A stretch of 64,000 nucleotides of DNA, from assembly GCF_039904985.1 (NCBI RefSeq), contig NZ_CP157005.1:3181501-3245500 (forward strand). Reading direction: 5' to 3'. The notes under the pieces are model-generated. The model saw only the letters and a program-made list of their open reading frames with translations, ran no database searches and was not told where the DNA came from. This document shows positions 3,953 to 7,335 of this stretch, in pieces. This stretch comes from Methylomonas sp. AM2-LC. Its GTDB lineage: Bacteria; Pseudomonadota; Gammaproteobacteria; Methylococcales; Methylomonadaceae. Position numbers and translations under genes: made by a program. Position 1 is the stretch's first letter, and each line of letters begins with the position of its first letter.

Positions 3953-6649
3953 ATGAAAATAAAGGTATTTTCCCTATTAGGCTACCTTGCGCTATGCGCA
4001 GGTATGCCGATAACCGAAACGGCTGCCGATCCCTATGCTTCCAGCCCCTATACTACTCTTATCTGCGGTGGTGAGAACATGGCCGCCTGTGTAAGCACTT
4101 CAGATTTTGCGATCAACATGTACTCCGATCCATTACTGTTACCGAAATGCGATAAAGGTCTGACCGTTTCCGGCAACCTTTGCGTAAGAAACTCCACCGG
4201 TCATGCAAACCTGTTCGCCAATCCCAACAGTTGGCTCGGCTTTGCCATGCAGGAACAGATGTACGGTATCGGTGCACATCAGCAAGCTAACTGGGGTAAT
4301 TATTTAGGGTCGCATAATTCCTATAGCACTTATGCCGACAATGCAAAATCCTCCTTGTCCGCCGACCAGGTGTTGAGCATGACCGACCAACTTCAAGAGG
4401 GTATGCGCATTATCCGCATGGATCCAAGATTCTATAGCGGGCAGATTCGACTCTGTCACAATACCGCATACGGCATTCTGGACGAATCAAACAACTTCAT
4501 CAACTGTGCCACCGACGGCAAAAATTTTCCATCAGCCTATTTTACAATTCCAGATCAAATTTTGAAGGACCTCCTTTCAATATTTGGCAAAACATATACG
4601 GTATCTGATTTGATCAGTGACACTGGCTTGGCCGGACCTTCCAGCGAAGGCCGCTTGTATGCCTTGGGCATGCACGAAGTGGCTGAATGGCTGAAAAAGA
4701 ATCCTGGTGAATTTATTATCATTCGTCTTTTGGGCACGAGTGAATTGGATAAAGCTCATTATTACTGGATAGACGATGCCATCAACATCGAACTTGGCAA
4801 CCTGGCTTACCAGCCACCCGCAGATGGCTCAACCCTTGACCATTGGCCTAGCTTGCGCGAACTGCGCGGCGCAGGCAAACAGGTGATTGTATTTAGCGAT
4901 ACTGGCACCAATACCACTTGGGATTGGTCTAAATATGTCATTGATGATGGTTATACTGACACGTCCGGTTACCGCTACCCGACTTGCCAAAACCAGGGTG
5001 GTTTCCCCATTGCCGCACGCAATCCTAACCAATGGTCATATGTCGGCGAAGACCGTAGCGGCAGTAATTTCTTTGCCTCAGGACCGAAAGGCGCACTAGG
5101 CGAAGGAGCCATAGCGGATGCCACCAAATGCGGTTACTCCATGATCAATCTCGATTTTCTACTGGCGGGTTCAAGAGCCAGTCAGGCATCAATTCAATAT
5201 GATATTTGCGCTGGCATAGATGTTACCAGTGACTGTTACAAAACTTACACTATATGGAATTACTCATTTCCCGATCCAGATGTCCGTCGAGTTAGTTTCA
5301 TTTGGAGTTGGGGAATAAACGAATTTGGCAACGATGGACCGGCAGCCATGGCTTTGAAATATACCTTTATCGGCAATCCACTTGCAACGTTTAAAGCTTA
5401 TGAACAAGGCCACTGGCTAAGCGATGCCGCAAGCAACCAACATGCTTTTGCCTGCGCTGGACCTAAGACTTCCACAGGAATATTCCCTGACCCCGATCAT
5501 CCTGCCGACTACACCTGGGCCGTCACTCAAACCCGAGCTGCATGGACGCAAGGTGAAAGCGTTTGTCAGAAGGAGTTTGGTGCACAATTTCATTTTTGGG
5601 CGCCTGCTGGCGGACAAGAAAACCAAAATCTTTTCAGTATTGCCTTCCGCGACAGGCTATCCGCAAACCCATTTAATCCTGACAGCGACCCGATCTGGCT
5701 GAACCACATAGCCAGACTAATTACTGCAGCACCAAATAGCCTAAGTTTAGCGCCTCAGCAAAACGCAACTATCAACGTGCTGGGCGGCAAGGGTGGCAAA
5801 CTGGAAACGCAAGTAACTGGCAGTCATTTGAAAGCAACCGTATCAGGTACGCAAGTCGAGGTTGAATCTTTGTTGGGGTCTGCACCGGGCAGTTTCAATG
5901 AAAGTATCGTGATTCGGGAAGTTGATCCAGCTACCGGCGGGTTTCTTCAAGCACCACTCATCATCCCTGTTACCGTTAATGTTCCCGGTGTAACCCTGCA
6001 TGTAAAAGCGGAAATTCCTGGAGCAAGTATCAGCGTTGCTCCGCACATCAATGTGGACGGCAAGGATTACGCGCTTCCTGCTGATGTACAGGTATTGACT
6101 AACAGCAACCATGAGATCAGCCTCCACCCTGTGATGGAAATCTCACCGGACACCCGTTTAAAATTTAACGGTTGGATGGACGGGGGTTCGCAAAACAAAG
6201 CTGTACATGTCGGCGTTAAAGATGCAGTACTAATTGGCAAATTTACACCTGAATATCTGCTGACTGTGAAAAGCGTACCCGCAACAGGCGGTTCCGCTAC
6301 CGGAACAGGCTGGTATGATCTCAATAGTACACCCAACCTTAAGGCAACACCTACAAGCAATTACCTGTTTCAGCAATTTCAAGGTGATTTCGTCAAATCG
6401 ATCCACAATCCGTTTACAGTACCCAACATTAATAAGCCGGAGACTATCGTAGCGGATTTCTTGCTAATTGGTGACTTGAACGCTGATGGAATAGTCGATA
6501 CTAAAGATCTGGCGATTCTACAAAAAGTGCTTAACACCAATACAAGCGGTCCTACTGATATTCGCGACCTAAATCACGATGGCCTCTTAAACGCTCTGGA
6601 TATGCGTATTTTAGTCACAAAATGCACCCATTCCCAATGTGCATCCTAG
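3953..6649 (+). CDS. Secreted PLC-like phosphodiesterase with C-terminal dockerin domain
   Basis: An 898-residue exported protein: signal peptide (about 1-25), then a PI-PLC-like TIM-barrel region with the two catalytic-type histidines His121 (GSHNSY) and His169 (RLCHNT), 48 residues apart as in bacterial PI-PLC. Between them lies the acidic/basic stretch GMRIIRMDPRF. Residues about 590-830 look like beta-sandwich and repeat modules. The end (840-898) is a type I dockerin with two calcium loops, DLNADGIVDTKD (841-852) and DLNHDGLLNALD (872-883). The family cleaves phosphodiester bonds in phosphoinositides or GPI-like lipids; the substrate here is unknown. The ribosome binding site AAGGAG is strong. 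The next gene encodes a cohesin-like protein, the expected dockerin partner. Confidence 0.8.
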   Translation: MKIKVFSLLGYLALCAGMPITETAADPYASSPYTTLICGGENMAACVSTSDFAINMYSDPLLLPKCDKGLTVSGNLCVRNSTGHANLFANPNSWLGFAMQEQMYGIGAHQQANWGNYLGSHNSYSTYADNAKSSLSADQVLSMTDQLQEGMRIIRMDPRFYSGQIRLCHNTAYGILDESNNFINCATDGKNFPSAYFTIPDQILKDLLSIFGKTYTVSDLISDTGLAGPSSEGRLYALGMHEVAEWLKKNPGEFIIIRLLGTSELDKAHYYWIDDAINIELGNLAYQPPADGSTLDHWPSLRELRGAGKQVIVFSDTGTNTTWDWSKYVIDDGYTDTSGYRYPTCQNQGGFPIAARNPNQWSYVGEDRSGSNFFASGPKGALGEGAIADATKCGYSMINLDFLLAGSRASQASIQYDICAGIDVTSDCYKTYTIWNYSFPDPDVRRVSFIWSWGINEFGNDGPAAMALKYTFIGNPLATFKAYEQGHWLSDAASNQHAFACAGPKTSTGIFPDPDHPADYTWAVTQTRAAWTQGESVCQKEFGAQFHFWAPAGGQENQNLFSIAFRDRLSANPFNPDSDPIWLNHIARLITAAPNSLSLAPQQNATINVLGGKGGKLETQVTGSHLKATVSGTQVEVESLLGSAPGSFNESIVIREVDPATGGFLQAPLIIPVTVNVPGVTLHVKAEIPGASISVAPHINVDGKDYALPADVQVLTNSNHEISLHPVMEISPDTRLKFNGWMDGGSQNKAVHVGVKDAVLIGKFTPEYLLTVKSVPATGGSATGTGWYDLNSTPNLKATPTSNYLFQQFQGDFVKSIHNPFTVPNINKPETIVADFLLIGDLNADGIVDTKDLAILQKVLNTNTSGPTDIRDLNHDGLLNALDMRILVTKCTHSQCAS

Positions 6650-6672
6650 CTATAGTAAGTGTTTAAGCTGTT

Positions 6673-6702
6673 TTCCGACCACCTTTGAAAAAGTGGTCGG
6701 AA
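6673..6702 (+). terminator. 10-bp perfect hairpin between the dockerin and cohesin genes
   Basis: TTCCGACCAC (6673-6682) pairs exactly with GTGGTCGGAA (6693-6702) around a ten-base loop. It lies 23 bp after the stop of the PLC-dockerin gene and 60 bp before the cohesin-like gene. Only TTT follows, so it may be a weak terminator or a processing and stability element that sets the ratio of the two products. Confidence 0.5.
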
Positions 6703-6762
6703 TTTCGGCAAAACCAGCAACAAATTACGCTCAAATTCCCATTTATAAACAAGGTAAGCATT

Positions 6763-7335
6763 ATGAACATTAAATATTTAGCATTAAGCATATTCCTCAG
6801 TGGCAGTATGAATATCGCCTATGCCACCCCAATATTGTCGATAGATCCAACAACACAAAGCGTAGCTCAAGGCAGCCAGGTTAGCTTCAATATTGACATT
6901 TCTGGTTTAGGTAGTGGCCTGACATTGGGAACATATGATTTAAGCCTGAGTTTCAATTCTACCTTGTTGGCTTATTCCAGTATCCAATTTGGCACAGGAT
7001 TAAATCTGTTCGGTTTGGGCGATATCCAATCCGTTACTCCAGGTGCGGGAAATGTCGAGGTGTTTGAACTATCTCTGGATTCGGCAGGTGCGCTAAACGT
7101 CTTTCAACAACATCAGTTTACACTGGCAACGCTAACATTCGACACATTAGGCAAAGGCACCAGTCCTGTCTCATTGTCGCTAAAGGCACTGGGAGATGCT
7201 TATGGTAATTCACTTACCGTGGCTATCCAAAACAGTTCTATATCTGTGGTGCCGGAGCTACCTACTTTTGAATTGTTAATCCCCGGTTTGATCGGTATTT
7301 ATTTTGTTGGACAAAGAAAACGTTATTATCAATAG
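6763..7335 (+). CDS. Cohesin-domain-like protein with PEP-CTERM-like C-terminus
   Basis: A 190-residue secreted protein with signal peptide (MNIKYLALSIFLSGSMNIAYA), then a beta-rich domain (about 23-160) with the look of a cohesin module: LSIDPTTQSVAQGSQVSF, a G.YDLSLSFN strand and a T..TFDTLGKG strand. The end has VPELPTFELL, a hydrophobic helix and the basic tail GQRKRYYQ, the layout of a PEP-CTERM/exosortase sorting signal with Leu replacing the second Pro of VPEP. The ATG at 6763 has AAGGTAAG upstream; the open frame back to 6685 would have to be read through the hairpin. It is inferred to bind the dockerin of the preceding enzyme and hold it in the envelope or matrix. No exosortase gene is in the window. 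Confidence 0.65.
   Translation: MNIKYLALSIFLSGSMNIAYATPILSIDPTTQSVAQGSQVSFNIDISGLGSGLTLGTYDLSLSFNSTLLAYSSIQFGTGLNLFGLGDIQSVTPGAGNVEVFELSLDSAGALNVFQQHQFTLATLTFDTLGKGTSPVSLSLKALGDAYGNSLTVAIQNSSISVVPELPTFELLIPGLIGIYFVGQRKRYYQ

Follow-up and report, generated by a model that had tools for sequence, protein, structure and literature searches.

The 64,000-nucleotide stretch of contig NZ_CP157005.1 of Methylomonas sp. AM2-LC analyzed here (in the following, the window) carries two adjacent genes, the products of which are referred to as P0001 and P0002 (Table 1). P0001 is a putatively secreted protein with a phospholipase C (PLC)-like module in its N-terminal part and a type I dockerin domain at its end, and P0002 is a small protein with a single cohesin-like domain followed by a tail of the exosortase type. 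The main finding is that this arrangement, a dockerin gene directly beside a gene for a single, tail-bearing cohesin, recurs within the family Methylomonadaceae and elsewhere in the Gammaproteobacteria, with different proteins attached to the dockerin.

Both calcium loops of the P0001 dockerin are present where the initial annotation had placed them (DLNADGIVDTKD at residues 841-852 and DLNHDGLLNALD at residues 872-883), and Pfam Dockerin_1 (PF00404) matched residues 840-887 with an E-value of 1e-6 (29.3 bits versus a cut-off of 22.9). The dockerin profile (A2) matched solved cellulosomal dockerins (best 2y3n, E 2e-10), with calmodulins ranking lower. In P0002, Pfam Cohesin (PF00963) matched residues 30-138 (E 2e-4; 22.0 bits, or 22.1 in the genome search), just below the cut-off of 24.1, and a cohesin profile (A1) of 29 sequences including P0002 matched five solved cohesins of the adaptor scaffoldin ScaB in the PDB (best 3l8q, E 1.8e-9). 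The tail of P0002 (VPELP), which the initial annotation had also pointed out, is a candidate PEP-CTERM variant, recognized by layout only (P-x-P motif, hydrophobic stretch, basic end). The AM2-LC genome encodes four exosortases over cut-off, two Pfam dockerins and one Pfam cohesin.

The third profile match it had envisaged, PI-PLC-X (PF00388), did not materialize: P0001 gave no match to it at E<=1, nor did its N-terminal part at E<=0.1, and a single-sequence search against PI-PLC structures gave E-values of 0.11-0.12 only. At E<=0.001, 3 of the 368 other genomes in the class sample contained relatives of the module (the relative L199 being split over two open reading frames (ORFs)), and at E<=1e-5 over that part none of the 150 other genomes of the family did. 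In an alignment of P0001 with three distant relatives (A3), His121-Asn-Ser, Arg152, Asp157 and Cys168-His169 are invariant, including the two PI-PLC-type histidines noted initially. The module is called PLC-like because these histidines are common to L200, a relative that passes Pfam PI-PLC-X (26.1 over 23.1 bits); the predicted identity is one of residues and kinship, not of its own profile score. L200 is also over the cut-off for Lectin_C, for which L198 reaches 22.0 of 22.6 bits and P0001 itself has no Pfam match. An InlB-type repeat lies N-terminal to the dockerin. With P0001 as query, neither a first contig scan nor a plasmid search found a match.

To follow the pair, P0002 alone was used as query, which makes the search blind to dockerins. 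In 151 genomes of the family (E<=1e-5) it identified 33 places in 25 genomes, the window included, and in a sample of 369 genomes of the class (E<=1e-6) cohesin matches in 13 other genomes; these numbers do not agree with the rarity in Gammaproteobacteria assumed in the initial annotation. All 33 family places were read with longer flanks and scored with the cohesin and dockerin profiles. A dockerin ORF on the same strand lies directly beside the cohesin in 27 of them (gap <=313 bp; some longest-ORF starts overlap), and in other families of the class within 160 bp in 11 of 13 places. Sixteen of the 27 family dockerins were also recovered by a separate Dockerin_1 search (E<=0.01), the rest being called by profile A2 only. 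Three of the six unpaired family places are truncated where the contig ends (L100, L106, L183; in L100 an ORF that is RHS-like by eye runs off the contig). With 112 Dockerin_1 matches in the 151 genomes (E<=0.01, summed by hand), we estimate a chance expectation of about 0.01 for the 33 cohesin places (assuming approximately 3800 genes per genome), and chance adjacency was rejected on the family and class counts.

The dockerin gene comes first in 36 of 46 pairs and the cohesin gene in 10, and 40 pairs remain when near-copies are removed. Among these 40, dockerin divergence correlates with cohesin divergence (Mantel r 0.46, 0/20000 permutations; 0.63 for the 32 with C-terminal dockerins). The reverse link is looser: in the fetched loci, a confident cohesin is found at a distance of 350 bp or less from 50 of 84 dockerin ORFs, and in a phylum sample of 398 genomes, 7 of 13 dockerin places outside our own have a profile-level cohesin neighbour. 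A scan with the dockerin protein of L110 returned 11 named loci, and the cohesin gene adjoins within the available stretch in eight of them, including Methylomonas methanica R-45363, Methylomonas fluvii EbB and Methylomonas sp. LW13 (L234), but not in L240, L241 and L242. In L096, L097 and L102 a dockerin gene lies on either side of a single cohesin gene, and one cohesin anchor may there serve two cargos. The plasmid search with P0002 gave one match, on Methylomonas koyamae plasmid pFW12EY (L201:7932-16155), where the cohesin gene, already annotated as 'cohesin domain-containing protein', and an RHS gene lie beside an integrase and an IS91 transposase; because of these neighbours, the cohesin cassette may be mobile.

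The sorting tail is confined to one side of the pair. A tail of exosortase layout (proline, hydrophobic stretch, basic end) was counted in 52 of 54 cohesin ORFs, the window included, versus none of 84 dockerin ORFs, and the two cohesin ORFs missed by the count (L160, L161) show a tail by eye; the same layout was counted in 94 of the 694 remaining ORFs with 120-400 residues from these loci, pooled as one group. Exosortase (PF09721) was detected in 34 of 37 cohesin-positive versus 18 of 37 cohesin-negative genomes, the latter chosen by hand (Fisher p 4e-5), and, for the family taken by itself, in 24 of 24 versus 12 of 20. Genome G276, whose cohesin (L163) is without a dockerin neighbour, has no exosortase match. 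Of the 46 nearest cohesin-adjacent dockerin ORFs, 32 have a C-x(2-5)-C end, and many of the dockerins in alignment A2 have a C-T-R-x-R-C-A type tail. Cellulosomal dockerins are not known to have such a cysteine-pair tail.

The cargo is swapped between loci while the dockerin and the cohesin stay alike. Pfam was scanned for 43 of the 84 dockerin ORFs, including 35 of the 50 beside a cohesin, and revealed domains (over cut-off unless stated otherwise in Table 1) from propellers and proteases to nucleases; the PLC-like module of the window, for which lipid or phosphodiester cleavage was suggested initially, is one cargo among many, and such cleavage is therefore not a theme of the system. No cargo domain over the Pfam cut-off was found in L161, L165, L168 and L169. 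L096 and L097 encode another dockerin protein, with a lactonase-type propeller, downstream of the cohesin, and L104 a penicillin amidase with a dockerin that is not cohesin-adjacent. In five loci (L101, L105, L095, L103, L094) proteins of 1414-1813 residues have the dockerin internally and the cohesin gene upstream, RHS repeats being Pfam-confirmed in L101 and L105. No glycoside hydrolase was over cut-off in the ORFs scanned; Glyco_hydro_2_N remained below threshold in L162 (26 of 28 bits), and Sde0182_C, a domain named from a cellulose-binding protein, was matched over cut-off among the PKD repeats of L172.

Table 1. Features of the window, and cargo domains of dockerin ORFs in related loci
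Feature	Position in window, or locus	Strand	Basis
Dockerin-bearing secreted protein P0001, 898 residues	3953..6649	+	ORF; signal peptide approximately 1-25 by eye
PLC-like phosphodiesterase module, approximately residues 95-440 (His121 = 4313-4315, His169 = 4457-4459)	4235..5272	+	Alignment with relatives
C-type-lectin-like stretch in P0001, limits approximate	5300..5720	+	Alignment with L200 and L198
InlB B-repeat-like domain (PF18998) of P0001	6263..6463	+	Pfam, 32.5 over 23.6 bits
Dockerin type I domain of P0001, two calcium loops, end C-T-H-S-Q-C-A-S	6470..6646	+	Pfam and alignment A2
Perfect 10-bp hairpin between the two genes	6673..6702	+	z -2.27 for the 131-base stretch 6640-6770; without T run
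Cohesin-like protein P0002 with exosortase-type tail, 190 residues	6763..7335	+	ORF, Pfam, family search
Cohesin domain of P0002	6835..7242	+	Pfam and profile A1
PEP-CTERM-like tail of P0002 (VPELP, hydrophobic stretch, RKR)	7249..7332	+	Sequence; layout as in cohesin relatives
BNR propellers, cohesin-adjacent	L096, L109, L110; L090 below cut-off		Pfam
PD40 propeller with PKD, cohesin-adjacent	L091		Pfam
Vps10-type propeller, cohesin-adjacent	L108; L107 below cut-off		Pfam
Cytochrome c, cohesin-adjacent	L119		Pfam
RHS repeats with internal dockerin, cohesin-adjacent	L101, L105		Pfam
Nidogen-like, cohesin-adjacent	L114		Pfam
DUF11, cohesin-adjacent	L115		Pfam
M6 peptidase, cohesin-adjacent	L121		Pfam
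Glucose/sorbosone dehydrogenase, cohesin-adjacent	L159		Pfam
Subtilase, cohesin-adjacent	L160		Pfam
NHL repeats, cohesin-adjacent	L162		Pfam
Bacterial Ig and metal-binding repeats, cohesin-adjacent	L164		Pfam
IgGFc-binding-like, cohesin-adjacent	L166		Pfam
GDSL lipase, cohesin-adjacent	L170		Pfam
PKD repeats, cohesin-adjacent	L172		Pfam
M9 collagenase, cohesin-adjacent	L181		Pfam
DUF7034-type repeats, cohesin-adjacent	L190		Pfam
ExeM/NucH nucleases, cohesin-adjacent	L118, L171, L173		NCBIfam
ExeM/NucH nucleases, cohesin-adjacent	L175, L176		LTD plus Exo_endo_phos layout
ExeM nucleases, neighbours just weakly cohesin-like	L174, L186		NCBIfam

The ExeM nucleases among the cargos allow a comparison with proteins that carry their own anchor. 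L173, L174, L118, L186 and L171 match NCBIfam ExeM/NucH, a group known with a GlyGly-CTERM, but in the best stretch their match to the ExeM-GG profile extends only to position 604-726 of 884, and the dockerin occupies the end. The missing end of the profile is presumably the GlyGly-CTERM, and these cargos show an apparent anchor swap, with the dockerin at the end.

The pair resembles the clostridial cellulosome in that type I dockerins are found on secreted enzymes and the cohesin on a surface-linked partner, and in the structures matched by profiles A1 and A2. Cellulosomes are anchored by SLH or sortase-type modules, whereas the anchor here would be an exosortase-type tail; furthermore, each of the 54 cohesin ORFs has a single cohesin domain with the partner gene adjacent, and the cargos are not plant-polysaccharide enzymes. 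A cellulosome was accordingly rejected for this system (no second cohesin stretch in any of the 54 ORFs, one genomic cohesin match, and the lack of glycoside hydrolases over cut-off in the 43 dockerin ORFs scanned). The tripartite C-terminal tail and the exosortase in the genome are shared with the PEP-CTERM/exosortase system as outlined in Haft 2006 (PMC1569441), in which the tail is borne by the sorted protein itself, whereas here it is on the neighbour of the enzyme and the enzyme is without it; the text of that paper mentions neither cohesin nor dockerin. Many non-cellulosomal dockerin and cohesin proteins are reported from anaerobic methanotrophic (ANME) archaea, and the passages that deal with them call their implications or role unknown or unclear (PMC5244752, PMC9012536). 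These passages describe scaffoldin-like proteins with up to five cohesins, unlike the single cohesins found here, and mention no conserved pairing of such genes combined with an exosortase tail.

We consider it probable (roughly 75%) that the two genes form a tether that is modular and non-covalent: the cohesin, once processed by exosortase, would hold a secreted enzyme by its dockerin. The two genes would constitute one cassette. Its dockerin protein, in which a catalytic module (here PLC-like and putatively active, with a lectin-like stretch) is joined to a calcium-dependent plug and which has no anchor of its own, would be exported by the Sec pathway and then probably cross the outer membrane in a second step. 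The adjoining gene would supply a matching single cohesin, the C-terminal tail of which would be recognized and cut by exosortase, thereby fixing the cohesin to the outer envelope or exopolysaccharide, and dockerin-cohesin binding would then hold the enzyme at the cell non-covalently. A minimal two-part system holding an enzyme in the envelope or matrix had already been proposed from the window, and the recurrent pairing together with the split of the sorting tail now strongly favours it. A broader extension, that exosortase-bearing Gammaproteobacteria generally sort proteins in this way, with the signal split onto a dedicated cohesin subunit, so that any secreted protein could enter the exosortase pathway (possibly exported piggy-back) once it acquires a dockerin and a cohesin gene next door, is tentative and in our view rather doubtful.

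Several observations weigh against the tether. P0002 as a single sequence is under the Pfam cohesin cut-off, its tail was not among the 39 matches to PF07589 (PEP-CTERM) at E<=10, and many dockerins of the relatives (e.g., L090, L091, L110, L119) are below the cut-off of Pfam or unmatched by it. The dockerin genes of L104 are at least 4.2 kb off, L116 and L117 as well as the class cohesin L163 have none, and in L161 the dockerin is 793 bp from the cohesin, with one ORF between. Conversely, no confident cohesin lies within 350 bp of 34 of the 84 dockerin ORFs in the fetched loci, and 6 of the 13 phylum-sample dockerin places lack a cohesin neighbour at profile level (the neighbour is weakly cohesin-like in L174 and L178; L177, which adjoins an unrelated PEP-CTERM protein, L179, L180 and L182 have no cohesin neighbour). 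Loci from the same genus cannot be counted as independent, and some loci are close relatives; for the Mantel result, linkage and relatedness of the species are confounders, as co-inheritance of linked genes would also give it. Finally, genomes G347 and G435 carry the pair but have no exosortase match. The weak single-sequence match of P0002 and the dockerin ORFs apart from any confident cohesin would also suit a reading without mutual binding, with the dockerin as a calcium module of generic type and the cohesin-like fold as that of an Ig-like adhesin at the surface; we regard this as improbable, since the pairing with unrelated cargo in family and class is hard to explain unless the parts cooperate.

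The restriction of the tail to the cohesin partner, the adjacency of the genes (often overlapping or tens of bases apart) and the association with exosortase would equally be expected if the cohesin were a piggy-back export adaptor, i.e., if the cargo docked on it in the periplasm, the exosortase/exopolysaccharide route exported the complex, and the cohesin served as a sorting subunit and not as the final anchor. Several cargo families, namely ExeM DNases and M9 collagenases, are however secreted in other bacteria without a cohesin, and the data do not separate docking before from docking after export; we judge such an adaptor unlikely, though it is the most serious competitor of the tether. 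Close spacing and the mostly one-to-one ratio of cohesin and dockerin genes might also suggest that the neighbour acts on the cargo enzyme as chaperone or inhibitor and is not its anchor, but a partner of that kind would hardly remain alike, as the dockerin and cohesin do, while the cargo is unrelated between loci, nor does it explain why the cohesin carries the sorting tail, and we give this explanation very little credence.

In the open-licence literature we found no bacterial report in which dockerin or cohesin is combined with PEP-CTERM, exosortase or rhombosortase (dockerin plus exosortase led only to an ANME review), and a report elsewhere is possible; the parts were already known, and the conserved pair as a system appears to be new. 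In Methylomonas sp. LW13, disruption of the exosortase EpsH is reported to reduce exopolysaccharide (PMC11072679), and a suppressor mutant with a rough biofilm is reported to have mutations in or near two exosortase genes (PMC5874918). LW13, with its reported exosortase mutants, carries the pair, and the idea is therefore testable. A recurrent plug-and-socket pair with a sorting tail would give non-cellulosomal dockerins and cohesins a concrete job and predicts the partner of each socket; for the exosortase field it would represent a substrate class whose function can be read from the neighbour gene, and for engineers a possible source of new natural cohesin-dockerin pairs.

The only other Pfam dockerin gene of the AM2-LC genome (G000:C1:2382847-2384268) has a 218-residue ORF with a VPELD tail 14 bp upstream (L126:3177-5269 = G000:C1:2382176-2384268). 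This neighbour has no Pfam cohesin match and is weakly cohesin-like (hhalign probability 23%, versus 0.4% for a PEP-CTERM-type control; 13.0 bits with our own cohesin profile), a hint of a possible second pair in the genome; the same hhalign test gave 3.9% for the neighbour in L127 and 32% for that in L178. The gene downstream of P0002 (7864-9276, by eye an L,D-transpeptidase) occurs in another long copy at G000:C1:3141614-3142894, about 47 kb away and with 65% identity, and among the matches listed no other genome of the genus has two of >400 bits to it. At 29 close L,D-transpeptidase loci (of 36 other genus genomes searched; flanks <=1.5 kb) neither dockerin nor cohesin was found; an empty site is unproven because the L,D-transpeptidase of the window is one of two long copies in the genome. 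Between the genes of P0001 and P0002, terminator prediction made no terminator-like call, and the hairpin of the intergenic stretch could determine how much enzyme is produced relative to the anchor.

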